Shown piece by piece: positions 13,291-63,143 of a stretch of DNA of 64,000 nt; position 1 is the first letter of the stretch, and each line of letters starts with the position of its first letter. A program made the position numbers and the translations under genes. Source of the stretch: Spirochaetales bacterium (lineage in GTDB: Bacteria; Spirochaetota; Spirochaetia; Sphaerochaetales; Sphaerochaetaceae); assembly GCA_022788185.1 (NCBI GenBank), contig JALEVV010000063.1, positions 29,444-93,443 of the forward strand. Reading direction: 5' to 3'. The notes under the pieces were generated by a model, which had not been told where the DNA came from, ran no database searches, and worked only from the letters and a program-made list of their open reading frames with translations.

Positions 13291-14286
13291 TCACTCCCCG
13301 TAGTGTTCCTCAATATAGTGTCTGAGCTCCAGACTTCTTTCCTTTGAGAACTGTGCTCCTATCTGGCTGATGATCTCACCGGCCAGGAAGGATGCGATTT
13401 TACCGGCAGTCTCACTGGAATATCCCTTAGCAATTCCATACAGGAAGCCTGCGGCATAGGTGTCTCCGGCTCCTGTGGTATCCACCGGTTCCGAAGATCC
13501 CTGAACGTCAATCTTCGTGATCACCCTGTTGTCCGACACGAAGGAACCCCTCTTGCCGTTTTTGACGACAGCTATCGGGGCAAGCTTTCCCATACTCTTG
13601 CAGCACTCATAGGCATCGTAGTTGTCAAAGAGATATCTTGCTTCCTCGCTGTTGGCGAACACTATGTCGCAATGGTCCGTAATCAGCTGGAGAAAGTCAG
13701 ATCTGTATCTGCCTACGGCAAAGGGATCCGCGATATCGAATGCAACCTTAATCCCGTTCTCACTGCAGAAACTCAGAACCTTTCTTATGGCCCTTTTCTG
13801 AGGCTCTGTATCCCACATGTATCCGGTGAAGTAGAAAATAGAGGCATCCTTCAGATTGTCCAGATTCACGTTCGGTGCATCAAAGCACTTGTTTGCGCCC
13901 AGAAAGGTATTCATGGTCCTTTCCTTGTCATCGGTGAGTAGGATGATGGACGTGCCTGTGGGTTCATCATATGAGATAAGATCGTCACCGACCCCGATTT
14001 CACGGAGTTTTGCCCTGTAAACCTCGGAAAGCTCATCCTTTCCCACACCTCCTGCAAGAGTGGTATGAATACCGAGGGAGCATAGTGTAACCATAGTGTT
14101 GGGGCATGAACCGCCCGGAGAATAAACCAGCTTCTTGGTCTTAAGGTAATCGATTAGTTCCTTATGACGGGCTTTATCAATCAGATGCATTGTTCCCTTG
14201 TACAGGGAAAGGGCATTAAGGTCTTCATTGGTGATGTTTGCCAGTATGTCTATAAGGGGATTGCCGATTCCGTAGATCTTATTCAT
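13291..14286 (-). CDS. PfkB-family sugar/nucleoside kinase (adenosine kinase-like)
   Basis: A 331-residue ribokinase-fold kinase. The C-terminal PfkB signature VDTTGAGDTYAAGFLYG supplies the catalytic Asp and anion hole; the N-terminal substrate region is GNPLIDILANI and SPGGSCPNT. The N-DPL-like start and length suit the adenosine kinase-like branch seen in many bacteria, but the substrate cannot be set from sequence alone. There is no Shine-Dalgarno sequence, and TATAAT lies 6 nt before the ATG, so the message is probably leaderless. Confidence 0.85.
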   Translation of the reverse strand: MNKIYGIGNPLIDILANITNEDLNALSLYKGTMHLIDKARHKELIDYLKTKKLVYSPGGSCPNTMVTLCSLGIHTTLAGGVGKDELSEVYRAKLREIGVGDDLISYDEPTGTSIILLTDDKERTMNTFLGANKCFDAPNVNLDNLKDASIFYFTGYMWDTEPQKRAIRKVLSFCSENGIKVAFDIADPFAVGRYRSDFLQLITDHCDIVFANSEEARYLFDNYDAYECCKSMGKLAPIAVVKNGKRGSFVSDNRVITKIDVQGSSEPVDTTGAGDTYAAGFLYGIAKGYSSETAGKIASFLAGEIISQIGAQFSKERSLELRHYIEEHYGE

Positions 14287-14292
14287 GGGAAA

Positions 14293-14321
14293 ATTATAGC
14301 TTCAAACGCCCAATAAAACAA
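14293..14321 (-). promoter_or_regulatory. Promoter of the PfkB-family kinase (leaderless type)
   Basis: On the minus strand: TTGTTT (14316-14321), 17 bp, TATAAT (14293-14298), then 6 nt TTTCCC and the ATG at 14286. The predicted start of transcription is the A of the start codon. Confidence 0.7.
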
Positions 14322-14337
14322 TTCAATATAATCCCCA

Positions 14338-14366
14338 TGCCAAAACACACTCATAAATGATACACT
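14338..14366 (+). promoter_or_regulatory. murA promoter (leaderless type, extended -10)
   Basis: TGATACACT, an extended -10 (hexamer 14361-14366), lies 6 nt before the murA ATG. The -35 position (14338-14343, TGCCAA) is weak, which the extended -10 can offset. No Shine-Dalgarno sequence is present. Confidence 0.6.
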
Positions 14367-14372
14367 GAATTC

Positions 14373-15656
14373 ATGAGCAGATATGTGATAAGAGGCGCAA
14401 GGGAACTTCACGGTGAAATAAATGTCAGCGGAAACAAGAATGCTGCCCTTCCGTGCATAGCTGCGACCCTTCTTACCGATGAGGAAGTAAGACTTTCAAA
14501 CATCCCGGACATTCTTGATGTAAGGGTAATGAAGAAACTGCTTACAGAGCTGGGATCTGAAATTCATGAACACTCTCAGAACAGTGCTTCCTATTATTCC
14601 CATATAAGATTCTCAGGACTTACTCCTTCCCTTGTGGACAGCGTAAGAGGATCCATACTGTTTTCCGGTCCCCTGCTGGCAAGGGGTGAAAAAGTAGTTA
14701 TACCTCCTCCCGGCGGTGACGTGATAGGGCTGAGAAGACTTGATACCCACTTCATGGGGCTTTCAGCCCTTGGTGTGGACTGCAGTGTGGATGAAAGGGG
14801 CTATCTAATTCTCACACCTCCCCAGAGGCTTATGGGAGCGGACATATTCCTTGACGAAGCCTCCGTCACGGCCACTGAGAACTGCATAATGGCAGCCACC
14901 CTTGCCTATGGGGAGAGTACCATTTACAATGCGGCGTGCGAGCCTCATATCCAGGATCTGTGCCATCTTCTGAACAGAATGGGAAGCTCAATTGAGGGTA
15001 TAGGCTCCAACTATCTCAGGATAAAGGGAAGGGAAAAACTCAAAGGTGCAGAATTTGCCATAGGTCCCGATTACATGGAAACAGGATCCTACATCGGACT
15101 TGCCGCCGCAACCGGCAGTGAACTGCTCCTTAGAAGAACCGATACATCCTACCTGAGGCCTCTGGAACTGGGCTTTGACAAACTCGGCATAAAGTTTGAG
15201 TCCTTCAAAGACTGTATTTATATACCAAAGGAACAGAAGAAGATCATAAGCAGGACCTATTCAGGTGTTACTAACAAGCTTGATGATGCCCCATGGCCGG
15301 GCTTTCCCGCCGACCTTCTGTCCATAATGACGGTAACGGCTACTCAGATGACAGGTACCCTCCTTATCCATGAGAAGATGTTTGAATCGAGACTCTACTT
15401 TGTTGATTACCTCATCAGAATGGGAGCTGACATCATTCTGTGTGACCCACACAGGGCTGTTGTGAGCGGCAAGAGCAGACTAAAACCCTGTGAGCTGACA
15501 AGTCCCGATGTCAGGGCCGGAATGGCCATGGTGATAGCAGCGCTGGCAACCGAAGGCGTCTGTTCAATTGACAGGATAGACCAGATCGAAAGGGGATATG
15601 AAAAGCTTCTTGAAAAGCTCAGCGGGGTCGGTGCCGATATCGTGAGAGCCGACTAG
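14373..15656 (+). CDS. murA: UDP-N-acetylglucosamine 1-carboxyvinyltransferase (MurA, Cys-to-Asp type)
   Basis: Transfers enolpyruvate from PEP to UDP-GlcNAc, the first committed step of peptidoglycan synthesis. The 427 residues have the EPSP-synthase-like two-domain fold with GNKNAALPCIAATLL at the start and the conserved Arg-rich and GPDYMETG segments later. The active-site loop reads PPPGGDVIGLRRLD: Asp116 (GAC, 14718-14720) replaces the usual Cys that fosfomycin alkylates. Asp at this place is known in mycobacteria, chlamydiae and Borrelia and gives fosfomycin-insensitive enzyme. No Shine-Dalgarno sequence is present. Confidence 0.97.
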   Translation: MSRYVIRGARELHGEINVSGNKNAALPCIAATLLTDEEVRLSNIPDILDVRVMKKLLTELGSEIHEHSQNSASYYSHIRFSGLTPSLVDSVRGSILFSGPLLARGEKVVIPPPGGDVIGLRRLDTHFMGLSALGVDCSVDERGYLILTPPQRLMGADIFLDEASVTATENCIMAATLAYGESTIYNAACEPHIQDLCHLLNRMGSSIEGIGSNYLRIKGREKLKGAEFAIGPDYMETGSYIGLAAATGSELLLRRTDTSYLRPLELGFDKLGIKFESFKDCIYIPKEQKKIISRTYSGVTNKLDDAPWPGFPADLLSIMTVTATQMTGTLLIHEKMFESRLYFVDYLIRMGADIILCDPHRAVVSGKSRLKPCELTSPDVRAGMAMVIAALATEGVCSIDRIDQIERGYEKLLEKLSGVGADIVRAD

Positions 15657-18149: not shown

Positions 18150-19591
18150 TTGCCTTCCTTAAGATAGTCAACGGCGGCAATGAGGGCCGTATCATACATT
18201 AAATCGACCTTAGGTCTTTCATTGTACGGCATGGCATAGATGTACTCATTCCTGATAAGCAGCTTAAGGGCTGTTTCATGGATGCCCAGACCTGCGTGAA
18301 GGGCGGCAAAGGCATCTATGTTCTCCCTGGAGTACAGGGGATTATCCTTGATATACTGTGTTATCTCATCCTGACTGCTTTCCACGAAATCGTAGTATGC
18401 CGTGATTTCCTCATCGGTGTATTCATGCTCCTCTACGGCAATGTCAGGTTCTATTCCCGTTTTATGTATGTTGTTCCCATTTGGAGTGAGGTAGTAGGCC
18501 GATGTGTATTTGATGTATCCGTTCTTCCACATGGCAGACTCCTGTATGATGCCTTTTCCGAAGGTCTTGCTTCCTATGACTGTGGCCCTGCCGTTTTCCT
18601 GAAGGGCAGCCGTAAGTATTTCACTTGCAGAGGCTGTTCCGCCGTTTGTCAGGATGACTATGGGAATTGTCAGGTTTTTCCTCGTGTCATTCGAAGCGAC
18701 TGTTGAGTAATTCTGTCTTGAGGATCCTTCCTTGTGCTGGATCGACAGAACCGTCGCACCTTCGGGCAGGAAGAAGTTCGCGATCATGGTGGCGGAGTCT
18801 ACAACTCCTCCCGCATTGTTCCTTAAATCTATTATGAGTCCCTGAGCGCCGTTCAGGGTGAGTTTTTTCAGATTCTCGCTGAAGAGCTCATAGGTCTTCT
18901 GGGTAAAGGATGATATGCTGATGTACCCGATATCGGTTCCTTCAATCATCAGGGATGTGGTATTCGGGGTTGTGACCTCCTCAGGATACATTGTGATGTC
19001 AAAGACTGCAGAGCCCCTGTGAACGGTCAGGGTGATGGGTTCCCCTGCCTTACCCCTTATCTTCATGCTTGCTTCCGTTGCGGTAAGCTCGTAAACGGTT
19101 TCCCCGTTCACGTGGGAGATAAGGTCTCCGGCCCTGAGTCCCGCCCTGTCTGCGGGGCCGCCAGGGAATGGCGCTATGATCTCGACCATGTAGGTCTTTT
19201 CATCATCCCAGTCGATGAATGCGGGGGAGTATTTTGTCAGATAGGTGCCTATACCTACGTAGATACCTGTTATGTCTTCGGTGAATTCCTCGCTTTCTTC
19301 CTCTGTTATGTACTCGGAATAGGGGTCATCGAGGGCCTTGAAAAGGGCTTTAGTGAGCTCCACATCGACTTTGTCGATATCGATGTCATAAAGAAAGTTC
19401 TGACTCAGATACTGGTAGAGTGTGTTCAGCCCCAGCAGGGTGGATGAAATGTTTGTGACCTGAACCTGCTGAAGGGCAGTGTTCTGCTGCTGTCCTGATC
19501 CGGAATGGGTCTCGGAAGAGGCTCCCGCTGTAAGTGGAGAGAGTGTCAGAATCGCGATCAGAATGATCAGCATTGCTTTTCTTAATTGCAT
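18146..19591 (-). CDS. ctpA: S41-family C-terminal processing peptidase (CtpA type)
   Basis: A 481-residue periplasmic serine protease. An N-terminal signal segment (RKAMLIILIAILTLSPLTAGA) is followed by a helical region, a PDZ domain (RAGLRAGDLISHVNGE, about residues 150-175), and the S41 core with GGTASASEILTAAL (nucleophile Ser) and GSKTFGKGIIQ (general-base Lys). A C-terminal extension of about 100 residues follows. Such proteases mature or degrade envelope proteins. No Shine-Dalgarno sequence is present, and TACAAT ends 7 nt before the ATG. Confidence 0.93.
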   Translation of the reverse strand: MQLRKAMLIILIAILTLSPLTAGASSETHSGSGQQQNTALQQVQVTNISSTLLGLNTLYQYLSQNFLYDIDIDKVDVELTKALFKALDDPYSEYITEEESEEFTEDITGIYVGIGTYLTKYSPAFIDWDDEKTYMVEIIAPFPGGPADRAGLRAGDLISHVNGETVYELTATEASMKIRGKAGEPITLTVHRGSAVFDITMYPEEVTTPNTTSLMIEGTDIGYISISSFTQKTYELFSENLKKLTLNGAQGLIIDLRNNAGGVVDSATMIANFFLPEGATVLSIQHKEGSSRQNYSTVASNDTRKNLTIPIVILTNGGTASASEILTAALQENGRATVIGSKTFGKGIIQESAMWKNGYIKYTSAYYLTPNGNNIHKTGIEPDIAVEEHEYTDEEITAYYDFVESSQDEITQYIKDNPLYSRENIDAFAALHAGLGIHETALKLLIRNEYIYAMPYNERPKVDLMYDTALIAAVDYLKEGK

Positions 19592-19598
19592 ATATAAG

Positions 19599-19627
19599 AT
19601 TGTAATTAAAACATGTTCTCAAGTGAA
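19599..19627 (-). promoter_or_regulatory. ctpA promoter (leaderless type)
   Basis: On the minus strand: TTCACT (19622-19627), 17 bp, TACAAT (19599-19604), then 7 nt and the ATG at 19591. It is back-to-back with the lgt promoter. Confidence 0.55.
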
Positions 19628-19643: not shown

Positions 19644-19672
19644 TTGACTCATTATCTGTCTCTAACTACACT
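19644..19672 (+). promoter_or_regulatory. lgt promoter (leaderless type)
   Basis: TTGACT (19644-19649), 17 bp, TACACT (19667-19672), then 6 nt TTCACT and an ATG at 19679. This fixes the lgt start at 19679, since an ATG at 19613 would lie upstream of the promoter. Confidence 0.7.
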
Positions 19673-19678
19673 TTCACT

Positions 19679-20644
19679 ATGCTTTCCTATATCGAATATC
19701 CCTCATGGATCAGGCCGGAGGTCGTATCCTTTCTTCCAGTCAGATGGTATGCAGTGATGTACATCGTGGCATTTGCCATTGCATATCTGCTTTTCAGATA
19801 CCAGGTCAGACATGACGGCAGGCTTGAGATGTCAAAGGATGATTCGGAGAACATGTTCCTTCTCTGCATAGTCCTTCTTCTTGTCGGTGCCCATCTCTTC
19901 TCCGTATTCTTCTACAGTGATGCGGCCTACTATCTGACACATCCCTGGCTTATCTTCTGGCCGTTTGAAAACGGTCGGTTCGTGGGCCTGCCGGGAATGA
20001 GCTACCATGGAGGAGTGGTAGGAGCCATTATCGGAGGCATTATCTTTGCCCGGAAGAAAAAATATGATTTCTTCCTTCTTGCGGATACCGCCTGTGCAGG
20101 AATTCCATTGGGATATGCCTTCGGAAGGATAGGCAATTTCATCAATGCCGAGCTCTACGGCCGTGTGACCGCATCCCCCATCGGCATGGTTTTCCCCTAT
20201 GCGGAGAAGTTCTCGACCAACTATGAATGGGTAAGGAACATATGCGACAATGTGGGAATAGAGTATGCACTCGGTGAGTACGTGAATCTTCCCCGCCATC
20301 CTTCCCAGCTTTATGAGGCGCTCTTTGAAGGTGTGGTGCTTTGGCTTGTATTATGGTTTATATGCAGACCAATGATCAGAAAATATGCATTGAAACCGGG
20401 ATCCATGCTATCATTCTATCTGTTCGGATATGGATTTGCCCGATTTTTCATCGAGTATTTCAGACAGCCGGACAGCAATATCGGTTATGTAATCGCACTG
20501 GGAAAGGAGAGCGACAACATCGCGGTCTTCCAGTCGTTTTTCAATATTTCAAAGGGACAGGTCTTCTGTTTTCTCATGATGGCAGCGGCCGTTGTCCTAT
20601 ATCTGTACGTGAACAGGAGAGAGAAAAAACATGTCAACCATTGA
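19679..20644 (+). CDS. lgt: Prolipoprotein diacylglyceryl transferase
   Basis: Adds a diacylglyceryl group to the lipobox Cys of prolipoproteins in the inner membrane. The 321 residues have about seven membrane segments, the Lgt signature GRIGNFINAELYGR, the catalytic HGG region in SYHGGVVGA, and RHPSQLYEAL. The frame is open from 19613, but the ATG at 19679 follows a good promoter by 6 nt and gives the normal Lgt N-terminus. It overlaps pepP by 14 nt. Lipoproteins at 43.1 and 52.0 kb are likely clients. Confidence 0.95.
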   Translation: MLSYIEYPSWIRPEVVSFLPVRWYAVMYIVAFAIAYLLFRYQVRHDGRLEMSKDDSENMFLLCIVLLLVGAHLFSVFFYSDAAYYLTHPWLIFWPFENGRFVGLPGMSYHGGVVGAIIGGIIFARKKKYDFFLLADTACAGIPLGYAFGRIGNFINAELYGRVTASPIGMVFPYAEKFSTNYEWVRNICDNVGIEYALGEYVNLPRHPSQLYEALFEGVVLWLVLWFICRPMIRKYALKPGSMLSFYLFGYGFARFFIEYFRQPDSNIGYVIALGKESDNIAVFQSFFNISKGQVFCFLMMAAAVVLYLYVNRREKKHVNH

Positions 20645-25366: not shown

Positions 25367-26610
25367 TACAGAATGTCCTTATAAGGCGGTTTGATATCGG
25401 TGCTGATGAACCTGGATGAAACCACCTGACCCAGCATCATGATCTGTGCATCGAGCAGGATGGCAAGACCGTTCACAAGGGGAAGCAGACCGAGAACAGT
25501 CATTTCCGCCCCATAGAGGGAAATGCCGGACATGCGGAAGACGATGAGCAGGGAGAACATCACTTCAAAGCCTGTTGCCATCGATGTGGTGAAGGAAGCG
25601 AGGCATGAGAACAGGGCAATGATAATGGCCGTCCTGATGTCGGGGGCCGCACCCGTTACCGAGGTGATCAGGGCAAGTGCCGAAAGAGTGGTAATGGCAG
25701 CTGTTCCTGCCCTTCCCGTCATGGTGTAAAGGGGAACGGTGGTAGCCGCCACTCTCTTCTGTACTCCGTTACTGTGCCTTCCGGTTGCTTCCGCAATCGG
25801 AGCGACTGTGAGGATGTTTGAGGTGGTAAGACCCGCAACCATTGCCGACAGGGATCTGAATGTATCCCTGTACGGGTTCCTTTTGCCCTTTGTGAAAATG
25901 GCATAGAGTAGAGGAAGCAGTATGAGCGAGAGAATCGCGGTCACTGCAATGAATGAAAGCACGAAAGCCGGTGCCACGAACACTGTCTTTTCCTGATACA
26001 GCTCTGTGAAGAACTGGGCGGAAGCGATGTATACGATAATGTAGCTGAATACGGTATACGTCCTGGAAAGCCTGAACATCACTTCACTGAATGAGTTTAT
26101 CGTCATGTATGCCGGTTTGATAACATCGGCGTTGGGCTTGAGGGCATATCCGAAAATCCATGCCAGGATTACGATGGGAAGAATGAAGCCCGTGGCGGTT
26201 GCCATGGAATAGTAAACATTGCTCATTATGAGCTGCTGTCCGGCGGAAGTGAACACTGATGAGAGAAAGGTATCAGGCAGTGAATCATATCCGGCCGTTG
26301 ATGAAACAGGGAATGTTACCGGGCGGAGAGTGAAGAGAAGCGCTGCGGCAAGGGGAAGCAGCACTGCTGTGACTGCCGACCAGGAAATTACACCTGCAAG
26401 GCTCTTCCCTCCCAGACCATCCTTTCTCAGGGATGCGACTCCGGCTGAGAAGCCGATAAGGACCAGTGGAATGAACAGAAGTATTCCGATACTCCCCACT
26501 AGGCCTGACAGCGTTGTCAGTATGGAGCTGATGTAAACACTGTCACCAAATAACAATGTGGTGGCGATTCCCATGAAAAGGGCTGCCAGATAAGTGATCC
26601 AGGTCTTCAT
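25366..26610 (-). CDS. Dicarboxylate/amino-acid:cation symporter-like (SDF family)
   Basis: A 414-residue transporter with about ten hydrophobic segments. The stretch MVAGLTTSNILTVAP sits where SDF transporters have the re-entrant Ser/Thr-rich loop, and FTTSMATGFEVMFSL resembles the second hairpin, but the classical signatures are degenerate, so assignment to the family is tentative and the substrate is unknown. The ATG at 26610 lies 8 nt after TAATCT and is preferred to an ATG at 26640, which would lie inside the promoter. Confidence 0.65.
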   Translation of the reverse strand: MKTWITYLAALFMGIATTLLFGDSVYISSILTTLSGLVGSIGILLFIPLVLIGFSAGVASLRKDGLGGKSLAGVISWSAVTAVLLPLAAALLFTLRPVTFPVSSTAGYDSLPDTFLSSVFTSAGQQLIMSNVYYSMATATGFILPIVILAWIFGYALKPNADVIKPAYMTINSFSEVMFRLSRTYTVFSYIIVYIASAQFFTELYQEKTVFVAPAFVLSFIAVTAILSLILLPLLYAIFTKGKRNPYRDTFRSLSAMVAGLTTSNILTVAPIAEATGRHSNGVQKRVAATTVPLYTMTGRAGTAAITTLSALALITSVTGAAPDIRTAIIIALFSCLASFTTSMATGFEVMFSLLIVFRMSGISLYGAEMTVLGLLPLVNGLAILLDAQIMMLGQVVSSRFISTDIKPPYKDIL

Positions 26611-26618
26611 ATTGAAAA

Positions 26619-26647
26619 AGATTACTCCAATAGCCCCCATAAGTCAA
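26619..26647 (-). promoter_or_regulatory. Symporter promoter (near-leaderless type)
   Basis: On the minus strand: TTGACT (26642-26647), 17 bp, TAATCT (26619-26624), then 8 nt to the ATG at 26610. It lies in the short gap after the GH13 gene. Confidence 0.6.
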
Positions 26648-30633: not shown

Positions 30634-30641
30634 GAAGAAAG

Positions 30642-30647
30642 ATTATA
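30642..30647 (-). promoter_or_regulatory. pth -10 element (leaderless type)
   Basis: Minus-strand TATAAT ends 8 nt before the pth ATG at 30633. The matching -35 (TAGTCA, 30665-30670) is poor and lies within the divergent YqfO-like gene. Confidence 0.45.
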
Positions 30648-30663
30648 TTAGGAAAGAGGAGTA

Positions 30664-45432: not shown

Positions 45433-46641
45433 ATGGAATCATTAAGGGAATTATTCAGGATCGGATACGGTCCTTCTTCATCTCATACAATGGGGCCGCG
45501 TGCCGCCACCGAGCGCTTTCTTTCAGCATATCCCGATGCTCCTTCCTATCAGGCGGAGCTCTATGGCTCACTGGCCGCTACGGGAAAGGGACACCTTACC
45601 GACAGGGCGATAAGGGAAGTGTGTGAGAAGCACGGAAAGAAGGTCGAGATCCTCTGGTTTCCTGAAGTATTCAAACCATTCCATCCCAATGCACTCACGA
45701 TGAAGGCATTGGGTGAGGATAGCTCTGTTCTCAGTGAGCAGACCTATTACTCCGTCGGGGGAGGAAAGATCGTGGAGGAGGGTGAGACCGATAAGGGCCC
45801 TGAATCGGTGTATCCGAAGGAGAAGTGCGGTACGATGTCCCGCCTTCTGAAATACTGCTCTGATGAAGGAATGCAGATCTGGGAGGTTGCACTTGAGTGC
45901 GAAGGACCAGATATCATCGATTACATAAAGGAAGTATGGATGGTAATGCAGGATGCCATCATTCGGGGCATAAACAACGAAGGTGTGCTTCCCGGAGGTC
46001 TCAAGCTTCAGAGAAAGGCTGCTTCCTGTTACACTAAGGCCCGTGATTTCTCAGGCCCCCTTGGCGGAACATCTCTTCCTCTTGCCTATGCCCTTGCCGT
46101 AAGCGAGGAAAATGCCGGAGGTGGCCAGATCGTCACCGCACCAACCTGCGGAAGCTGCGGTGTGCTTCCGAGCGTGCTCTATTACATGAAGAAGCAGTAT
46201 GATCTCGGCGATGAGAGAATGATAAGGGCGCTCCTCACTGCCGGCATGATCGGGAACATAGTAAAGGAAAACGGTTCGATCTCCGGCGCAGAAGTTGGCT
46301 GTCAGGGTGAAGTCGGGGTTGCCTGCGCCATGGCAGGAGGTGCCGCCGCACAGCTGCTTGGAGGCTCAGTCTATCAGATCGAATACGCAGCCGAAATGGG
46401 ACTTGAACACCATCTCGGACTTACCTGTGACCCTATGAAGGGACTTGTGCAGATTCCATGTATCGAAAGAAATGCGATGGCCGCCATGAGATCACTGGAC
46501 CATGCGGTATTTGCCCTGATGTCCGACGGAAGGCACAAGGTGTCATTTGATGCCGCTGTGGAGGTAATGATGGAGACAGGACAGGCTCTCCCCTCACTGT
46601 ACCGTGAAACAAGCATGGGTGGACTGGCTCTGCTGAAGTAG
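45433..46641 (+). CDS. sdaA: L-serine ammonia-lyase, iron-sulphur type
   Basis: Converts serine to pyruvate and ammonia with an oxygen-sensitive 4Fe-4S cluster. The single 402-residue chain has the beta-domain start GYGPSSSHTMGPRAA and the alpha-domain Cys residues in TAPTCGSCGVLPS, GCQGEVG and LTCDPMKGLVQIPCIERN. It fits an anaerobe fermenting amino acids. Its stop is 2 nt from the convergent AlbA_2 gene. Confidence 0.95.
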   Translation: MESLRELFRIGYGPSSSHTMGPRAATERFLSAYPDAPSYQAELYGSLAATGKGHLTDRAIREVCEKHGKKVEILWFPEVFKPFHPNALTMKALGEDSSVLSEQTYYSVGGGKIVEEGETDKGPESVYPKEKCGTMSRLLKYCSDEGMQIWEVALECEGPDIIDYIKEVWMVMQDAIIRGINNEGVLPGGLKLQRKAASCYTKARDFSGPLGGTSLPLAYALAVSEENAGGGQIVTAPTCGSCGVLPSVLYYMKKQYDLGDERMIRALLTAGMIGNIVKENGSISGAEVGCQGEVGVACAMAGGAAAQLLGGSVYQIEYAAEMGLEHHLGLTCDPMKGLVQIPCIERNAMAAMRSLDHAVFALMSDGRHKVSFDAAVEVMMETGQALPSLYRETSMGGLALLK

Positions 46642-48393: not shown

Positions 48394-50907
48394 TTACTTC
48401 ACGACGAAGTTGACAAGCTTACCGGGAATTGCGATCTCCTTGACGATCGTCTTTCCGTCCAGCCATACCTTGGACTTCTCGTCAGCCTTTGCCGCTGCGA
48501 TCATCTCGTCCTTGGAAGCGCTCTTCGGCATCATGATGCGGCTTCTGAGCTTTCCGTTGATCTGGACGACCATTTCCATGGTGTCCTCCCTGCAGAGCTC
48601 CTCATCGTATGTGGGCCAGCTCTGGTTTGCAACAGAGGGTTCATGTCCCATCATTGACCAGAGCTCTTCAGCCAGATGCGGTGTATAGGGGCTGAGGAGG
48701 AGGGCGAGAGTCTCAATGACTTTCTTGGGAACGACTTCAAGACGGTTCATCTCATTCACAAGTACCATCATCTGGCTGATGGCAGTGTTGAAGTTGAGTG
48801 TTGCCGTATCCTCGGTAACCTTCCTGATGGTCTTGTGGAGGGTCTTGTTGAGATCCATCGGGATTTCAACGTCCTCAATCTTCTTCTCGGTTGAAATTCT
48901 CCACACCCTGTCAAGGAAGCGGTAAACACCGATGAAGCCCTGAGTTGCCCAGGGTTTGGACTCCGTGAGGGGACCCATGAACATCTCGTACATCCTGACT
49001 GAGTCAGCACCGTAGTCGCGGATGAAGTCATCGGGGTTGATGACGTTCTTAAGGGACTTGGACATCTTGGCGATGACCTGTGTGAGTTCCTCACCTGTCT
49101 CCTTGTCGAAGTACTTTCCGTCTCTTTCCTCAACCATGTCCGTGGGTACGAGGGACTTGTTGGGCTTCTGATAGGCAAATGATGTGATCATGCCCTGGTT
49201 GACAAGCTTCTGGAACGGCTCCTTTGTGGATACCAGTCCGAGATCATAGAGAACCTTGTGCCAGAATCTTGCATAGAGGAGGTGGAGAACCGCATGCTCG
49301 GCTCCTCCGATGTAGAGGTCGACCGGCATCCAGTACTTTTCCTTCTCAGGATCGATGAACGCCTTTTCGTTCTTCGGATCGATGTAACGGAGGTAGTACC
49401 AGCAGGAACCTGCCCACTGGGGCATTGTGTTGGTTTCCCTCTTTGCGGGACCGCCGCACTTGGGACACTTACAGTTAACCCAGCTTTCAACGTTCACGAG
49501 CGGGGATTCGCCTGTGCCGGAAGGTTCATACTTGTCAACTGAGGGGAGGGTGAGCGGGAGCTCTTCCTCAGGAACGAGGACTGTGCCGCAGTCAGGACAG
49601 TGTACGAGGGGAATGGGTTCGCCCCAGTATCTCTGGCGTGAGAATACCCAGTCACGAAGCTTGTAGTTCACTGCCTTGTGACCACATCCGTTCTTCTCGA
49701 GGAACTCGAGCATCTTTGCAATGGCGTCAGCCTTGTTAAGACCGTTCAGCCACTCTGAGTTGACGTGCTCGCCGTCCTCAGTCCATGCCTGCTCCTGTAC
49801 ATCCACCTTGCTCTTGAGAACCTCAATGATGGGCAGAGAGAACTTCTTTGCGAACTCCCAGTCCCTGTCATCGTGGGCAGGTACTGCCATGATGGCACCG
49901 GTACCGTAGCTGATGAGTACATAGTCGGCGATCCAGATGGGGATCTTCTTTCCGTTTACCGGGTTGATGGCATAGGAACCGGAGAAGACACCTGTCTTGT
50001 CCTTTGCGAGGTCTGTTCTTTCAAGATCGGACTTGTGTTTTGTGGCATCGAGATATGCTTCAACTGCTTCTTTCTGCTCGGGAGTCGTGAGCTTTTCAAC
50101 AAGCGGATGCTCCGGTGCGATTACCATGTATGTTGCGCCGAAGAGCGTGTCACAGCGTGTTGTGTAAACTTCAAGCTTCTCATCGAACTTCTCAAGCTGG
50201 AAGAATACTGCGGCACCCTCACTTCTTCCGATCCAGTTGCGCTGCATTGCCTTGACGCTTTCCGGCCAGTCTAGGGTATCGAGATCCTCAAGGAGCTTAT
50301 CGGCATAAGCGGTGATTTTCAGGATCCACTGTCTGATGTTCTTCTTTTCAACCTTTGCACCGCAGCGGTCGCAGTGACCTTCCTTGACTTCCTCATTGGC
50401 AAGGCCGGTCTTACAGCTGGGGCACCAGTTGATCGGGGTGTTGGCTTCATATGCAAGACCCTTCTTGTAGAGCTGCTCGAAGATCCACTGTGTCCAGTGA
50501 TAGTAATCCTCATCACATGTGCTGATCTCCCTGTCCCAGTCATAGCAGAAGCCGAGGGATTTTATCTGGCGGCGGAAGTTGTTTATGTTCTTTGTCGTCG
50601 TCTCATAGGGGTGTGTGCCGGTCTTTATCGCATAGTTCTCCGCGGGAAGTCCGAAGGAGTCAAAGCCCATCGGATGGAGGACGTTGTAACCGTTCATTCT
50701 GAGATATCTGCAGTAGATATCAGTAGCCGTATAACCTTCCGGGTGTCCGACATGGAGTCCGGCACCTGATGGATATGGGAACATATCCAGTACATATCTT
50801 CTCTTATCTTTGGAGACAGCCGGGTCTTCCGTTACACGGAAGGTTTTGTGCTCTTCCCAGTATGCCTGCCATTTTTTCTCTATTTCTGAAAAAGGATATT
50901 TGCTCAT
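48394..50907 (-). CDS. leuS: Leucyl-tRNA synthetase
   Basis: Charges tRNA-Leu. The 837-residue class I synthetase has the HIGH-type motif [20 protein letters not shown], zinc-binding Cys pairs in [20 protein letters not shown] and later HCPDCG, the CP1 editing domain, and the KMSKS loop [16 protein letters not shown]. Length and layout are standard for bacteria. No Shine-Dalgarno sequence is present; TAATAT ends 8 nt before the ATG. Confidence 0.98.
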
Positions 50908-50915
50908 AGTGCATT

Positions 50916-50944
50916 ATATTAATATTTAGTCACTGTTTATTCAA
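50916..50944 (-). promoter_or_regulatory. leuS promoter (near-leaderless type)
   Basis: On the minus strand: TTGAAT (50939-50944), 17 bp, TAATAT (50916-50921), then 8 nt and the ATG at 50907. The -35 overlaps the last codons of the upstream GNAT gene. Confidence 0.6.
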
Positions 50945-51491
50945 TTCTTTTCCATGCAAGTGGTTTACTAACATCCTTTTCATGGCTGCCGATGAAAAGC
51001 TCCATCCAGACCATATCGTACCATGTGCCGAATTTATAGCCGCATTTGCTGAATCTCCCGCAGAGCCTGTATCCCAGATGGGAGTGGAAACCGATGCTGT
51101 TGTCATCAAGGTGTTCATCCTCCCCTGAAGGAGCCGCAATGCATGCATACATCGATAGGATTCCCATCCTCTTCAGTTCCTCCTTCAGTGCATCGTGCAG
51201 CGCCCTGCCGATACCCTTCTTCGTGGTTCCCTTTCTGACGTAGATGGAGGTTTCGACAGCCCAGTCATAGGCCTCCCTCTCCTTGAAGGGAGAAGCATAT
51301 GCATAGCCGAGGATGACTCCGTCCTCCTCGTAAACAAGATATGGATAGAAGGAAAGGGTCTTTCCGATCCTTCTCTCAAACTCCTCTGCGGATGGGACCT
51401 CGTACTCAAAGGTGATGGCCGTTTCTTCCACATAGGGTTCATAGATCTCCCTGATAACGGGAGCATCTGCGGTATTTGCGCTTCTTATCAT
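50937..51491 (-). CDS. GNAT acetyltransferase, phosphinothricin-acetyltransferase-like
   Basis: A 184-residue N-acetyltransferase. The start IRSANTADAPVIREIYEPYVEETAITFEYEVPS matches the Pat/MddA group that acetylates phosphinothricin or methionine derivatives; the acetyl-CoA loop region is VRKGTTKKGIGRALHDAL and the end has FHSHLGY..CGRFSKCGYKFGTWYDMVWME. The natural substrate is unknown. The ATG at 51491 follows TTGCCA-17-TATCAT by 7 nt; the frame is open to 51593, but that part overlaps the divergent gene. Confidence 0.88.
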   Translation of the reverse strand: MIRSANTADAPVIREIYEPYVEETAITFEYEVPSAEEFERRIGKTLSFYPYLVYEEDGVILGYAYASPFKEREAYDWAVETSIYVRKGTTKKGIGRALHDALKEELKRMGILSMYACIAAPSGEDEHLDDNSIGFHSHLGYRLCGRFSKCGYKFGTWYDMVWMELFIGSHEKDVSKPLAWKRIE

Positions 51492-51498
51492 GAAAGTG

Positions 51499-51550
51499 AT
51501 GATAGTCATCGGACAAAAGGGTGGCAATACCACCTCCGAATGATGATAAT
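51499..51550. promoter_or_regulatory. Divergent promoters sharing one -35 hexamer
   Basis: Minus strand: TTGCCA (51522-51527), 17 bp, TATCAT (51499-51504), 7 nt to the GNAT ATG at 51491. Plus strand: the same six bases read TGGCAA, 17 bp, GATAAT (51545-51550), 6 nt to the glycosylase ATG at 51557. Only one polymerase could occupy the region at a time. Confidence 0.6.
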
Positions 51551-51556
51551 GTTCAC

Positions 51557-52051
51557 ATGGAAAGAGAAGCACAGGTACATACGATAGGTTCACTCTTCAC
51601 CGAGAACTCAAAAATACTGATACTCGGTTCGTTTCCTTCTGTGAAGAGCAGGGAAGTGAACTTCTTCTACGGGCATAAGCAGAACAGGTTCTGGCCCGTG
51701 ATGGAGCGCCTTTTCAATGTAAGTCTTCCGACAATCGATGATAGAAGGGCTTTCATCCTCTCCCATGACATCGCTCTCTGGGATGTCATCGGATCATGTA
51801 CCATAGAGGGCTCGGGAGACCAGTCCATCAGGGATGTGGTTCCTAATGACCTTACTTTGATAACCTCATCAGCTCCTATAAGGCACATTTTCATTAACGG
51901 CGGTAAGGCTTATCAGCTCTATAAAAAGTATGACAGGGACATTCCGATCCCTGTCACTCCTCTTCCCTCCACATCACCGGCCAATGCATCATGTTCCCTG
52001 GACCGCCTGGTGAAGGAGTGGTCCGTGATCACTCAAGCATTAAATGCCTGA
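51557..52051 (+). CDS. Deoxyinosine/uracil-type DNA glycosylase
   Basis: A 164-residue member of the uracil-DNA glycosylase superfamily, resembling the hypoxanthine-DNA glycosylase branch. Visible motifs are ILGSFPSVKSRE, FFYGHKQNRFWPV, IALWDVIGSC, FINGGKAY and LPSTSPANAS. It would remove deaminated purines or uracil. The ATG at 51557 lies 6 nt after GATAAT; an upstream in-frame start would lie inside the promoter. Its 3' end overlaps the convergent phosphatase gene by 23 nt. Confidence 0.85.
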   Translation: MEREAQVHTIGSLFTENSKILILGSFPSVKSREVNFFYGHKQNRFWPVMERLFNVSLPTIDDRRAFILSHDIALWDVIGSCTIEGSGDQSIRDVVPNDLTLITSSAPIRHIFINGGKAYQLYKKYDRDIPIPVTPLPSTSPANASCSLDRLVKEWSVITQALNA

Positions 52052-54523: not shown

Positions 54524-54552
54524 TTGCATTTTTGCGACATTTCTAGGATAAT
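54524..54552 (+). promoter_or_regulatory. parE promoter (leaderless type)
   Basis: TTGCAT (54524-54529), 17 bp, GATAAT (54547-54552), then 7 nt and the ATG at 54560. No Shine-Dalgarno sequence is present. Confidence 0.6.
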
Positions 54553-54559
54553 GTGGTTT

Positions 54560-56365
54560 ATGGCGCAGAAATACGATGAAGATAACATAAAATCCCTGTC
54601 ATCACTGGAGCACATAAGACTCAGACCCGGAATGTACATAGGCAGACTGGGTAACGGTTCCCATGTGGATGACGGTATCTACATACTTCTCAAGGAAGTA
54701 ATCGATAACAGTATCGATGAATTCATCATGGGTGCCGGTTCCAGGATAAACGTGACCGTCCTGGACAACAGTGTCACCGTCAGGGACTTCGGACGCGGTA
54801 TCCCGCTCGGTAAGGTGGTGGAGTGCGTATCCGTCATAAATACCGGTGCGAAATACGACTCGGAGGCTTTCCAGTTCTCCGTCGGTCTTAACGGTGTAGG
54901 TACAAAGGCCGTCAATGCGCTTTCGGAAAAATTCTCGGTAACCTCCTTCCGTGACGGGGAGTATGCCTCCGCCTCCTTTGAGAAGGGCGTCCAGGTGGGA
55001 CGCGTGAAGAAGGGGACCACCACCGAACCCAACGGGACTCTTGTCACGTTCACTCCCGATCCCGAGCTCTTCGTTGATTACTCCTACAATGAGGAGTTCA
55101 TCAAGGAGCGTCTCTGGAACTACGCCTACCTCAACACCGGTCTTACGATCGAGTTCAACAAAAGAATCATCAGAAGCCAGCACGGTCTCATGGATCTTTT
55201 GGAAAAGAACGTGGGCAGCGACGGTCTCTACCCGATTGTCTACTACAAGGGACAGCGCCTTGAGTTCGCATTCACCCACACGTCTAGCTACGGTGAGTCC
55301 TACTACTCCTACGTCAACGGTCAGCACACCAGTGACGGAGGCACCCACCTTTCAGCCTTCAAGGAAGGGCTGCTGAAGGGCATAAACGAATACTATAAGA
55401 AAACCTGGAATGCCCCCGAGATAAGGGACGGTATCTGCGGAGCCATAAGCGTCAAGGTGCAGGACCCGATCTTCGAGAGCCAGACCAAGAACAAGCTCGG
55501 AAATACCGAGATCCGTTCCTGGATCGTGAACGAGGTCAAGGAAGCGGTCATCGATGCGCTCATGAAGAACAGTGAGACCGCAGCGGCGCTTTCAAATAAG
55601 ATCGCGACCAACGAACGTATCCACAAGGAAGAGAGCGCCGTGAGAAACGGAGCCCGTGAGATGGCCAAGAAGGTATCGATCAACATTCCGAAGCTGAAGG
55701 AGTGCCGATACCACCTCAACTCCTATCCCAAGTCCCATGAGAGGGAAGCCCTGAACTCCATGATCTTCCTCACCGAGGGTGATTCAGCCGCCGGTACGAT
55801 CAACAAGACCAGGGACGTGCAGACACAGGCCGTCTTCGCCCTGCGCGGCAAGCCCTTCAACGTCTTCGGAAAGACAAGAAAGGCGATTTACGAGAACCAG
55901 GAGCTTTACAACATAATGGTTGCCCTTGGCCTTGAGAACGGGGATCTGGAAAACCTCCGTTACTCCAAGGTGGTCATCGCGACCGATGCCGATGTGGACG
56001 GCTTCCACATCAGGAATCTCCTGATGACCTACTTCATCACCTTCTTTGAGGATCTGGTGACCTCGGGCAGGGTCTTCATCCTGGATACCCCGCTCTTCAG
56101 GGTAAGGAACAAGAAGGTAACGGTTTACTGTTATTCCGAGAAGGAGAAGGACGCAGCCCTGGAGCAGATCAAATCTCCGGAGGTCACGAGGTTCAAGGGT
56201 CTTGGTGAGATAAGCCCCTCCGAGTTCGGGCAGTTCATCGGTGAGGATATAAGGCTCATTCCCGTCACCATAGACAGCATGACCCAGGTAAGGCAGAAGA
56301 TGGAATTCTACATGGGCAACAACACGCCCGAGAGAAGGGAATATATAATGGAGAACTTAAGGTAG
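54560..56365 (+). CDS. parE: Topoisomerase IV subunit B (ParE)
   Basis: ATPase subunit of the decatenating topoisomerase. The 601 residues have RPGMYIGRLGNGSHVDDGIYILLKE, RDFGRGIP, GLNGVGTKAVNAL, TOPRIM motifs LTEGDSAAGT and ATDADVDGFHIRNLL, and RFKGLGEISP. ParE identity rests on the second gyrB-like gene, its pairing with parC 1 nt downstream, and its distance from dnaA. The frame is open upstream to 54479, but that part precedes the promoter and reads as low-quality sequence. Confidence 0.93.
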   Translation: MAQKYDEDNIKSLSSLEHIRLRPGMYIGRLGNGSHVDDGIYILLKEVIDNSIDEFIMGAGSRINVTVLDNSVTVRDFGRGIPLGKVVECVSVINTGAKYDSEAFQFSVGLNGVGTKAVNALSEKFSVTSFRDGEYASASFEKGVQVGRVKKGTTTEPNGTLVTFTPDPELFVDYSYNEEFIKERLWNYAYLNTGLTIEFNKRIIRSQHGLMDLLEKNVGSDGLYPIVYYKGQRLEFAFTHTSSYGESYYSYVNGQHTSDGGTHLSAFKEGLLKGINEYYKKTWNAPEIRDGICGAISVKVQDPIFESQTKNKLGNTEIRSWIVNEVKEAVIDALMKNSETAAALSNKIATNERIHKEESAVRNGAREMAKKVSINIPKLKECRYHLNSYPKSHEREALNSMIFLTEGDSAAGTINKTRDVQTQAVFALRGKPFNVFGKTRKAIYENQELYNIMVALGLENGDLENLRYSKVVIATDADVDGFHIRNLLMTYFITFFEDLVTSGRVFILDTPLFRVRNKKVTVYCYSEKEKDAALEQIKSPEVTRFKGLGEISPSEFGQFIGEDIRLIPVTIDSMTQVRQKMEFYMGNNTPERREYIMENLR

Positions 56366-60201: not shown

Positions 60202-63131
60202 TCCGCTGTCTCCTTATGCACGTTTATCACTGCCTTCTGCTCCAGTCCGTTGGCCTTTACGACCAGCCCCTCCGGAGCCCTTCTGTGGGTGAAGAACTCA
60301 GTCTCCTCCACTTTTTCAAGGCATTCAAGCTTATCATAATCGAGATGTCCCTCATGATAAACAGGGTTTATCGTGAGATAGACGCACCCCAGTGACGTCA
60401 TGTTCTGGAAGAAGTGGGTGCCCTGACTCGGCTCAACCTGGAAGTCGGGAAGCCCCGTTTCCACTATGACCCTCGCCCTGGAAATATCGGACCAGGAGCA
60501 TGGAATTCCCAGCCAGCGGTCTGTGGACCCCAGACGTCCTGCGGCAACGAGGATGTAATCCCCGTCGATGCGGCTGTTCATGTCGGCCAGCTGCCTGGCC
60601 ATCTCAACCGTCCTTGACTTGTCGAAGGCTCCGGCCTTAATGGCGATGATATCCTTTATGTCCGTGATGTACCCGTTGCCCATCACCTTCTCCGCATATA
60701 GGAGGGAATCCCTGACCTCATACTCATCGATGTCGATGTCGCTCTCGCTGAAGGCCGATGCAATGGGCCTGATCTGCAGTATGGAGAAGTCAGGCTTCTT
60801 CTCGCCGCTGCGTTCGGTGTTGACCGCGATCTCGATCTCGACGGGAGTGCCCATGCTTCTGGCTCCCAGCTTCAGGATGGTATCGACGACAGCTGCCAGC
60901 GGGAACATGTCATACTTCAGCATGCCGTTGAAGGTTATCATCTTCACGCCCTCGGCAAATGTCGACTCACTCACGGCACCCGTCGTGAGGTCGAGGGTGG
61001 AGGCAATGTACTTCAGTGACTTCGGATATGCCGCGGCCTCCTGCACCGGAAGCAGGACCAGATTGTCGATGTTTGAGAGCGGGTCGAAGGGAATCGTCAT
61101 GTCCAGTGCGTAGAACGTGTCCTGGGAGGCGGCATTCCCGTTCAGGGATGCGGAGGGTTTCTTGGGTTTTGCCGGACAGAAGCGGAACGCTGAGCCGTCA
61201 TCGACCACACTCTTTCCGAATCCGAAGGAGAGCATGCCGACACCGTCCTCGCTGGTCTGACCGTCCACGGGATAGTAGTTGAGGCTTCTGGCCACGCCGC
61301 TGACATTGGGGAACCACCACTTGCCGTGACGGGAACCTGTTACCTGCTGGAGGATGACCGCCATCTTCTCCTCCTCGACCATGTGACCGGTTATCTTCAT
61401 GTACTCCCGGGCCCTCTGGAAGAAGACCGAGGCGTATACGGTCCTTATCGCATCCGAGAGCTCCTGAAGACGCTTCTCATCACTGCCGTCATTGGAGAGC
61501 ATGCACGTCTGGTAAACCCCGGCGAAGGGCTCGGAGTGGCTGTCTTCAAGAAGCGATGATGATCTGACCGAGAGAGGCTGGCGCACGAACTTCAGGAATT
61601 CGGGCAGCGCCCTCTGAAGTTCACCCGGAAGGGGAAGGGACAGGAAGAGGCGAAGCACCTCATCATCACTCTTTTCAACAAGCTCGCTGACATCAAGTCC
61701 GTTCTCCTCAAAGAACGCATCGTAAAGGGATGTGGAAACAACCACGGTCTTCGGGATGGAGAGGTAAATGGACGGGAACTGCTGCTGAACCCCGTTTGCC
61801 TTCATCTCCGCCGCGATGAAGGCCAGGCCCCTGCCTTTTCCTCCAAGACTTCCGCTGCCGATTCTGGAGAAGAACGACGTCTCGTCGTAGCTGTCGGGTG
61901 AGAACTCAGCAATGACGCCGCGGGTACGCTGCATCCTGTATTCCTTTATCGTATTGTAGACCTCGCTTCGGATCTTCTCGCAGTGCTCCTCATCGCGGAA
62001 TGTCATGTCATGTATCGTCGATGCCAGGGTGAAGAGACCCTTTGCCCTGAGCCACTTCGAAAAGTCATTGCGCCTGCCGTGGTAGACCAGGGAAGAGGCC
62101 GGGACGGTCATGAAGGCATTCTGAAGCTCCTTCATCGTCTCAACCGTCGTTATCGTCTCTCCCGTTGCGGGATCGATGAAGTGGAAGGGCCCGAAGCTGT
62201 AGAATCTGATGAAGTGATCCTCAAGCTCCGAGAGCAGGGTGGGGGATGCCTTCCACAGGAACTCGGAGGCAACCTTCATTGCCTCATCCTTCTGGGTGAG
62301 GTCAGAGGACTGGATCAGGATTGGAACCTCCCTGTTTTCTTCCCGGATCTCGCGGGCAAGGACGAGTCCCGAACCGTTTTTGGAGCCGCGGTAGGGGAAG
62401 TTCACGTCGGATATGATACCGAGAATGTTCTTCCTGTACCGGTTGTAGTAGTACATGCCCTCCTCGCCGGTGCGGGCCAGAACGATCTTGGGCCTGCCCC
62501 TCATCCTCAGGGTCTTGCCCCACTCGTTGAGGGCCTCCAGGATCGAGGCCCTGGCCTGGTGGATGAGACAGGTGTACATCTTAGGAAGGTAGGATGAAAT
62601 GAACCTGACCGAGTCCTCGATCAGGATGATGACCTGAACGTCAGCCTCTTCGGTGTCATGCTCCAGATTGAGGGAGTCCTCGATGAGCTTGACCATGGCA
62701 AGGAAGAGGGAGGGATTCCCCTGCCAGTAAAAGAGGTAGTCTATGCACTTTTTCGCATCATCCTTAAAGGTCCTGACCCTCCTGTGGTCAGGAGAGGGTG
62801 CAAGCACGATAACCGGCATGGTGGGCTTTCTCCCCTTGATCCTCTCGGCAAGCTGCTCCACCCGTCCCGAGTGAAAGTCCAGCATCGTTATGACCAGATC
62901 GAAGGAGAGTCTGTCAATGAGGGAGAGTGCCTCCTTCTCGGAGGAAGTGTGCGTGATCTTGGGCGGATTGCTCAGTCCAAGTGCGGTATATTCCTTGTAA
63001 AGCTCCTCCTCGACCCTTCCGTCCTCCTCAAGCATGAAACGATCGTAGTCGGAACAGATAAGCAGGACATTGTATATGTGCCTTCTCATCAGGTTGGAGA
63101 AGGGCAGCCATGTTTGATCAAGATTGTACAT
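60192..63131 (-). CDS. Double receiver-PPDK_N (PEP/pyruvate-binding) protein
   Basis: A 979-residue cytoplasmic protein. Residues about 15-130 (NVLLICSDYDRFMLEED, DLVITMLDFHSG) and 165-300 (VQVIILIEDSVRF, GIISDVNFPYRGSKNG) look like two receiver-type domains. From about 420 comes an ATP-grasp PPDK_N domain (GSGSLGGKGRGLAFIAAEM, PLSVRSSSLLEDSHSEPFAGVYQT, FGFGKSVVDDGS). The phosphohistidine swivel and PEP-binding barrel of PEP synthase are absent, so full phosphotransfer from PEP is not expected. Its role is unknown; a signalling or regulatory one is likely. TAGAAT ends 6 nt before the ATG and no Shine-Dalgarno sequence is present. Confidence 0.85.
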   Translation of the reverse strand: MYNLDQTWLPFSNLMRRHIYNVLLICSDYDRFMLEEDGRVEEELYKEYTALGLSNPPKITHTSSEKEALSLIDRLSFDLVITMLDFHSGRVEQLAERIKGRKPTMPVIVLAPSPDHRRVRTFKDDAKKCIDYLFYWQGNPSLFLAMVKLIEDSLNLEHDTEEADVQVIILIEDSVRFISSYLPKMYTCLIHQARASILEALNEWGKTLRMRGRPKIVLARTGEEGMYYYNRYRKNILGIISDVNFPYRGSKNGSGLVLAREIREENREVPILIQSSDLTQKDEAMKVASEFLWKASPTLLSELEDHFIRFYSFGPFHFIDPATGETITTVETMKELQNAFMTVPASSLVYHGRRNDFSKWLRAKGLFTLASTIHDMTFRDEEHCEKIRSEVYNTIKEYRMQRTRGVIAEFSPDSYDETSFFSRIGSGSLGGKGRGLAFIAAEMKANGVQQQFPSIYLSIPKTVVVSTSLYDAFFEENGLDVSELVEKSDDEVLRLFLSLPLPGELQRALPEFLKFVRQPLSVRSSSLLEDSHSEPFAGVYQTCMLSNDGSDEKRLQELSDAIRTVYASVFFQRAREYMKITGHMVEEEKMAVILQQVTGSRHGKWWFPNVSGVARSLNYYPVDGQTSEDGVGMLSFGFGKSVVDDGSAFRFCPAKPKKPSASLNGNAASQDTFYALDMTIPFDPLSNIDNLVLLPVQEAAAYPKSLKYIASTLDLTTGAVSESTFAEGVKMITFNGMLKYDMFPLAAVVDTILKLGARSMGTPVEIEIAVNTERSGEKKPDFSILQIRPIASAFSESDIDIDEYEVRDSLLYAEKVMGNGYITDIKDIIAIKAGAFDKSRTVEMARQLADMNSRIDGDYILVAAGRLGSTDRWLGIPCSWSDISRARVIVETGLPDFQVEPSQGTHFFQNMTSLGCVYLTINPVYHEGHLDYDKLECLEKVEETEFFTHRRAPEGLVVKANGLEQKAVINVHKETAEWQ

Positions 63132-63137
63132 GGCGTA

Positions 63138-63143
63138 ATTCTA
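63138..63143 (-). promoter_or_regulatory. -10 element of the REC-PPDK_N gene (leaderless type)
   Basis: Minus-strand TAGAAT ends 6 nt before the ATG at 63131. The corresponding -35 (ATACAA, 63161-63166) is weak. Confidence 0.45.

Follow-up and report, generated by a model that had tools for sequence, protein, structure and literature searches.

Promoter hexamers abutting start codons and predicted leaderless mRNAs in a genome of the Sphaerochaetaceae

Introduction

The window considered here is a 64,000-nucleotide stretch of contig C28 in the draft assembly (2.27 Mb, 90 contigs; G000) of a Spirochaetales bacterium of the family Sphaerochaetaceae. An earlier note, made from the letters of this stretch, picked out fifteen genes that head their transcription units, lack a Shine-Dalgarno sequence and carry a -10-like hexamer 6–8 nt upstream of the start codon, and read them as a systematic leaderless architecture, which it did not know to be described in spirochaetes. 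The locus raises the question of whether these hexamers are promoters, and whether mRNAs transcribed from them would begin at the start codon itself. The observation is correct, since all fifteen coordinates are ATG codons with such a hexamer at the claimed gap, the gap being the number of nucleotides between the end of the hexamer and the start codon. The leaderless mechanism is very probably at work in this genome; the mechanism itself is already known, also among spirochaetes, and what is new is the lineage.

The genome sample comprises 630 kb (28% of the genome), window included. Genes were called by hexamer coding potential, and their starts were picked from the coding score and the codon alone, with no motif used; GTG and TTG starts were allowed but penalised. 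The sample holds 464 gene contexts, with 120 divergent genes, 281 first-like genes (either divergent or separated by more than 20 nt from a co-directional gene ahead of them) and 162 operon-internal genes (at most 20 nt from the upstream co-directional gene), the transcription units being taken from gene order alone. A gene-call-free survey of the DNA pattern of -35, -10 and ATG was dropped because its noise was too high across genomes.

Position of the -10 hexamer before first genes

When the position of TAnnnT is plotted before all starts, the check proposed in the earlier note, a peak appears at gap 6–7. The hexamer is found there in 32 of the 120 divergent genes, against 6.3 expected from 29 control bins, the largest of which holds 12; dinucleotide shuffles agree with this expectation (mean 6.3, largest of 50 shuffles 12). 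First-like genes show 46/281 against 12.9 expected, while operon-internal genes show no peak (2/162 against 2.6). A de novo motif search over all divergent genes returns the Shine-Dalgarno motif first. Over the 79 divergent genes without that motif, it returns TATcAT, with the largest share at the peak position and a log-likelihood of 44, compared with at most 21.5 in five mononucleotide shuffles.

The genes with TAnnnT at the peak, referred to below as TA genes, share further features. None of the 32 divergent TA genes has a Shine-Dalgarno motif, as opposed to 42 of the 88 remaining divergent genes (p 6e-8), and 43 of the 46 first-like TA genes also lack it. A pyrimidine occupies position -1 relative to the ATG in 45/46 first-like TA genes, compared with 114/221 other first-like genes (p 1e-10). 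Transcription starts preferentially with a pyrimidine at -1 and a purine at +1, so this is what a +1 at the A of the ATG would produce. Among 53 first-like cases with a gap of 5–8 and no Shine-Dalgarno motif, chosen without regard to the -35, 15 have at least 4/6 matches to the -35 consensus at a spacer of 17 bp, against 0–7 at the remaining spacers from 8 to 30. This spacer peak at 17 lies within the 16–18 bp that separate the -35 from the -10 in sigma-70-type promoters.

A/T-rich hexamers before genes could instead be unstructured or S1-binding translation enhancers on leadered mRNAs. S1 sites have been offered as an alternative cause of the A/T bias before non-Shine-Dalgarno genes, and in a table of the same paper six spirochaetes have a negative mean on the leaderless/S1-linked component, that is, no leaderless-like bias (PMC5397173). 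The enhancer explanation is nevertheless highly improbable here, as the hexamer has a fixed phase, the -35 peaks at exactly 17 bp and the -1 pyrimidine is nearly invariant (45/46). Moreover, operon-internal genes, which have to be translated but require no promoter of their own, lack the peak.

The fifteen starts of the window

To score the fifteen starts, a -10/-35 model trained solely outside the window was used. All fifteen score about 3.0 or more and fourteen about 4.0 or more, a score of 4 being reached by 32 of the 2771 ATGs of the window (both strands, true starts included). Three of the -10 hexamers match TATAAT at 6/6 positions, seven at 5/6, four at 4/6 and one, that of the symporter gene, at 3/6. 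At exactly 17 bp, at least 3/6 matches to TTGACA are present in 13/15 starts and at least 4/6 in 9/15. The earlier note had listed murA, pth and the REC-PPDK_N gene as lacking an acceptable -35 at this spacing, which holds for murA and REC-PPDK_N (two matches each, with a TGn preceding the -10 in both, i.e. an extended -10) and not for pth, which has four matches. The promoter regions are as follows.

14284..14321, minus strand: PfkB kinase gene, -35 to ATG; TATAAT, gap 6; score 6.7
14338..14375, plus strand: murA, -35 region to ATG; TACACT, gap 6, extended -10 (TGA), no -35; score 5.3
19589..19627, minus strand: ctpA, -35 to ATG; TACAAT, gap 7; score 5.6
19644..19681, plus strand: lgt, -35 to ATG; TTGACT-17-TACACT, gap 6; score 6.1
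26608..26647, minus strand: SDF symporter gene, -35 to ATG; TTGACT-17-TAATCT, gap 8; score 3.0
30631..30670, minus strand: pth, -10 region to ATG; TATAAT, gap 8; score 5.0
40872..40910, minus strand: nth, -35 to ATG; TTGAAA-17-AATAAT, gap 7; score 5.2
40921..40960, plus strand: aroF-pheA, -35 to ATG; TTGACC-17-TAGCAT, gap 8; score 6.8
45364..45401, minus strand: putative beta-barrel gene, -35 to ATG; TATAAT, gap 6; score 7.8
45397..45435, plus strand: sdaA, -35 to ATG; TTGAAG-17-TAGAAT, gap 7; score 6.8
50905..50944, minus strand: leuS, -35 to ATG; TTGAAT-17-TAATAT, gap 8; score 4.0
51489..51527, minus strand: GNAT gene, -35 to ATG; TTGCCA-17-TATCAT, gap 7; score 8.7
51522..51559, plus strand: UDG-family glycosylase gene, -35 to ATG; TGGCAA-17-GATAAT, gap 6; score 6.0
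54524..54562, plus strand: parE, -35 to ATG; TTGCAT-17-GATAAT, gap 7; score 6.2
63129..63166, minus strand: REC-PPDK_N gene, -10 region to ATG; TAGAAT, gap 6, extended -10 (TGG), no -35; score 4.4

The symporter start is the weakest of the fifteen and has a GGAG ending 14 nt ahead of its ATG, and leuS has a second, perfect TATAAT at gap 5. Fourteen of the fifteen gene names have Pfam support to family level or better; for parE (start 54560) the support is for the GyrB/ParE family only, the response-regulator part of REC-PPDK_N falls slightly below the curated cut-off, and the putative beta-barrel protein has no Pfam match. A scan of the window found no Rfam family and no tRNA. The aroF-pheA gene (40958–42871) encodes a fusion of DAHP synthase, prephenate dehydratase and an ACT domain, which joins the first step of phenylalanine synthesis to a later one in a single protein. 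The window also carries a second GyrB/ParE-family gene (1981–4008, minus strand), in which a Shine-Dalgarno-like motif takes the place of the leaderless signal seen at parE (54560).

Extent of leaderless-type starts and mixed initiation

The share of leaderless-type starts was estimated with a joint -10/-35 model trained on the stretches of congeners that are syntenic to the window, in which nearby ATGs compete and shifted decoy positions serve as control. Since these stretches are syntenic to the window, they are not independent of it. Outside the window, the joint model assigns to the leaderless type 34/104 divergent genes, with 4.8 at decoy positions, and 48/251 first-like genes, with 11.5 at decoy positions, compared with 11/16 divergent (decoys 1.2) and 12/30 first-like (decoys 2.0) inside it; for internal genes the counts are 2/147 outside and 0/15 inside. 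The window is thus denser in leaderless-type divergent starts than the rest of the sample (Fisher p 0.01). With a congener-trained model at a score of at least 4, 25/104 divergent genes outside the window are reached (24%; decoys 4%). After subtraction of decoys, roughly one third of the divergent genes and some 10% of the 464 contexts are of this type.

Twelve of the fifteen named starts are counted as leaderless-type by the joint model. The parE and symporter starts are removed by its Shine-Dalgarno filter, the match in parE being the AGGA of AGGATAAT, i.e. the -10 itself. REC-PPDK_N, which has no upstream neighbour in the window, is not counted; the model gave another in-frame ATG there, at 63035, a higher score.

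The word systematic in the earlier note overstates these figures, given that the mode is mixed, the window is richer than the rest of the sample and a Shine-Dalgarno motif precedes 42 of the 120 divergent genes. Among operon-internal genes, to which the earlier note ascribed strong Shine-Dalgarno sites, most have the motif (131/162). The anti-Shine-Dalgarno sequence GGATCACCTCCTTTCT is intact in the 16S rRNA of six relatives (G017, G029, G030, G031, G041 and G042), while the assembly that contains the window yielded no 16S rRNA. Loss of the Shine-Dalgarno system, which would show as a missing anti-Shine-Dalgarno sequence, was rejected on the basis of the six relatives and the motif in internal genes.

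Annotation in the genome sample (L113–L152) covered 20 of 44 leaderless-type genes and 20 random genes out of 28 Shine-Dalgarno-led divergent ones. The former include four regulators (LacI, TetR, AraC and HTH_3). Among the latter are solute-binding proteins, alcohol dehydrogenases, a phosphorylase and also a TetR_C and two AraC regulators. The apparent functional skew of regulators and housekeeping genes versus solute-binding and catabolic genes is too small to test in these sets.

Other genomes and controls

An independent 400 kb sample of a second species of the same genus (G011) repeats the TAnnnT peak, with 15/88 divergent genes against 2.1 expected, 28/220 first-like against 5.2 and 0/100 internal against 1.0; the -1 base is a pyrimidine in all 28 first-like TA genes. 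The syntenic stretches of the congeners have 29/72 starts at the peak position (3.9 expected), a member of the same family (G017) has 7/42 (1.4 expected), named loci of Sphaerochaetaceae type have 11/66 first-like (2.4 expected), and a member of the same class with 62% GC (G031) has 11/96 first-like (2.1 expected). The de novo sets without Shine-Dalgarno motifs are too small in G017 and G031 (21 and 16) and gave no distinct motif. A pool of Treponema type has 7/38 divergent against 2.6 and 12/127 first-like against 7.7, and T. vincentii has 3/28 first-like against 2.2. By the joint model, leaderless-type divergent starts number 5/14 in T. vincentii (L302–L305; decoys 1.0) and 9/38 in the Treponema-type pool (decoys 3.0). 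In 150 kb of E. coli K-12 run through the same pipeline there is no peak (1/44 divergent against 1.8 expected), and the joint model finds 0/44 divergent leaderless-type starts.

These samples bear on chance, that is, on the idea that the best of many starts were simply picked in one window. The richness of the window (11/16 against 34/104) means that the fifteen cases alone exaggerate the phenomenon. Chance is left with next to no probability, however, by a peak that is found outside the window, in the second species and in orthologues, and that arises from neither shuffles, shifted decoys nor E. coli.

Conservation of orthologous starts and the leuS contrast

Orthologous starts of the fifteen genes were scored in five congeners and G017 with the model trained on the congeners' own stretches, and 44 of 60 score 4 or more. 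Outside the 60 are two orthologues without a nearby ATG; the GNAT gene had no match, and the beta-barrel and glycosylase genes were matched in G005 alone. The signal is kept for parE (6/6 orthologues at 5.9 or more), lgt (5/5 congeners at 8.1 or more), aroF-pheA (5/5 at 6.9 or more), ctpA (4/4 scored congeners at 6.1 or more), pth (4/5 at 4.4 or more) and murA (5/5 at 3.5 or more). The REC-PPDK_N gene has two orthologues, scoring 4.1 and 5.0, and the one glycosylase orthologue scores 4.5. Upstream of parE, the -35 and -10 are conspicuous against a spacer and flanks that have diverged.

For leuS, the 80 matches listed include 53 spirochaete loci, of which 50 could be scored and three had no usable upstream sequence. 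The 31 loci not named Treponema comprise 22 leaderless-type, 6 Shine-Dalgarno and 3 unclear starts, Sphaerochaeta halotolerans being leaderless-type, as opposed to 0 leaderless-type, 14 Shine-Dalgarno and 5 unclear starts among the 19 loci named Treponema. A single-gene, unrooted LeuS tree of 53 rows (four near copies omitted, six non-spirochaetes included) groups the window leuS with S. halotolerans and other Sphaerochaetaceae in a 16-row clade (SH-aLRT 99). This Sphaerochaeta clade has 15 leaderless-type starts and 1 borderline one, the Treponema clade has 18 Shine-Dalgarno and 5 unclear starts, and the two start states need two changes among the 39 rows of clear state. Five deeper spirochaete rows are leaderless-type and one (L072) is of Shine-Dalgarno type; since these form no clade with the rest, the tree gives no direction of change. 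As the joint model finds leaderless-type starts in Treponema too, the contrast between the clades holds for leuS and not for whole genomes. For murA, the phylum has mostly Shine-Dalgarno motifs and no phylum-wide leaderless case. Beyond the spirochaetes, leuS of Elusimicrobia (L082, L083, L084 and L093) has a TA-rich -10-like hexamer (TAGAAT, TAAAAT) some 6–10 nt before the ATG, and Elusimicrobia are therefore a possible further leaderless lineage on this pattern.

Conservation also bears on whether the promoters are real and the mRNAs nevertheless leadered, with translation from a downstream in-frame codon or transcription from further upstream. Imperfect start calling leaves room for this (24/36 starts correct in K-12). 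On the other hand, the N-terminal start region of LeuS is unchanged in Treponema, where leuS has a Shine-Dalgarno motif, and orthologues anchored on the ATG keep the distance to the -10. Shine-Dalgarno-led first genes, for their part, have no peak at 6–8 nt; TAnnnT is commonest in them at 15–26 nt (a mild excess in the window genome) or 18–35 nt (congeners), which fits short leaders. Real promoters with leadered mRNAs are accordingly a very unlikely explanation.

Compact head-to-head promoters

Several leaderless-type starts face each other across short spacers. In the 66 bp spacer at 45367–45432, the -35s of the beta-barrel gene and sdaA overlap by 5 bp, and in the 65 bp spacer at 51492–51556, the -35s of the GNAT and glycosylase genes are the identical six base pairs (TTGCCA/TGGCAA). 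Both starts are leaderless-type (score 3 or more) in 16 of the 60 divergent pairs of the window genome. A -35 common to both genes is seen in 4 of these 16 pairs, 2 of 12 in the congeners and 1 of 5 in G011. Spacers of 61–95 bp occur in 11/16 doubly leaderless-type pairs in the window genome, but in 1/5 in G011. A cluster of 64–66 bp spacers was seen post hoc, and no significance is claimed for it.

Proposed mechanism and the points against it

We propose that a sigma-70-type promoter, with a -35, a 17 bp spacer and a TATNAT-like -10, abuts the ATG of many unit-first genes, so that transcription would begin at the first base of the start codon or no more than about two bases from it, and the predicted mRNA would have no leader. 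Known leaderless mRNAs are recognised at their 5'-terminal AUG by the 70S ribosome or by an IF2-rich 30S complex with initiator tRNA, and the 5'-terminal AUG predicted here would probably be recognised in the same way. Two modes of initiation would then exist side by side, with Shine-Dalgarno sequences serving most internal and many other first genes. The step from -10 position to leaderless mRNA taken in the earlier note is well supported by the peak, the -35 at 17 bp, the -1 pyrimidine, the repeat in G011 and the orthologues, and on these sequence patterns we hold abutting promoters and leaderless mRNAs to be the highly probable explanation for many unit-first genes.

Several observations weigh against this explanation or weaken its figures. 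Of 41 K-12 genes, the start caller found 36 and agreed with the annotated start in 24, which makes the rates rough estimates. All first-like TA genes start with ATG (46/46 in the window genome and 28/28 in G011), which is only mild evidence, as GTG and TTG were penalised and 105/112 Shine-Dalgarno-led first genes also start with ATG. The joint-model share in G011 is below that of the window genome (20/88 divergent; decoys 4.5). Among the small samples (G029, G030, T. vincentii and G096; 80–120 kb each), the signal is weak in G029 (6/54 first-like against 2.3 expected, with a -1 pyrimidine in just 2) and in G030 (9/56 against 3.8), and G096 has no peak (1/36 against 1.1). Finally, 16 of the 60 orthologous starts score below 4. 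The nth gene fails in four of the five congeners, the fifth reaching 4 at a different ATG; the PfkB kinase signal is lost in 3/5, that of sdaA clearly in 2/5, and that of the symporter in 3/5 (G002, G004 and G007), where a GGAGGG lies about 30 nt upstream. Some of the 16 misses carry a Shine-Dalgarno motif instead, as for PfkB in G004 and nth in G005.

A wider scenario can be put forward tentatively, though we think it rather unlikely as a whole. Leaderless initiation may have been an old default for first genes of the Spirochaetales that Sphaerochaetaceae and deep-branching relatives keep, while in the Treponema lineage leuS and other orthologous genes would have been switched to Shine-Dalgarno leaders. 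Where the mode was kept, divergent pairs would be packed into spacers of about 61–95 bp consisting solely of two promoters in opposite orientation, in some cases with a common -35, so that both genes would compete for RNA polymerase. This scenario is held at lower odds because the joint model finds leaderless-type starts in Treponema too.

Relation to known leaderless systems and significance

In leaderless transcripts of mycobacteria and Deinococcus, the -10 abuts the start codon. As in the window genome, several hundred genes or more are involved there, where they have been measured and are commoner. The numbers quoted in PMC5243855 are 505 leaderless transcripts in M. tuberculosis and 1174 in D. 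deserti. Within the spirochaetes, leaderless transcripts were found to be common by differential RNA sequencing in Leptospira interrogans, with about 440 of them, 430–450 genes having a primary start at most 10 nt from the start codon (PMC5243855). Zheng et al. 2011 predicted leaderless genes in 6 of 18 Spirochaetes genomes, with a mean of 3.9% (1.8–6.9%), and described TA-led genes in which a TANNNT some 12 bp ahead of the start was interpreted as a -10 box (PMC3160421). Contrary to the suggestion of the earlier note, leaderless mRNAs are thus a described feature of spirochaetes.

The window genome shares with the TA-led genes of Zheng et al. a TANNNT at fixed distance and a mixture with Shine-Dalgarno-led genes, and here too the hexamer is confined to first genes, as judged from gene order, with ATG starts and in nearly all cases no Shine-Dalgarno motif. 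It differs from their spirochaetes in its share of about 10% of genes, obtained by a different, rougher method, and Sphaerochaetaceae are not named in the part of the paper available (PMC3160421). L. interrogans belongs to the same phylum but to a distant lineage; its leaderless mRNAs are measured, whereas those of the window genome are predicted, and its study reports no common motif save sigma-54, in contrast to the distinct -35 and -10 here (PMC5243855). No paper on leaderless genes in Sphaerochaeta was found among the open-access papers searched, subscription papers lying outside this search. Beyond prior knowledge, the analysis adds the contrast between clades at leuS, the conservation of the starts within the family and the closely packed head-to-head promoters.

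The Sphaerochaetaceae, which are largely known from draft metagenome assemblies, join the organisms predicted to mix leaderless and Shine-Dalgarno initiation. Annotation by the longest open frame likely misplaces starts of such genes, in the window those of lgt, nth, aroF-pheA, parE, GNAT, the glycosylase and the symporter. The leuS genes of Sphaerochaeta and Treponema form a natural pair for studying how leaderless starts are gained or lost in the same genes.

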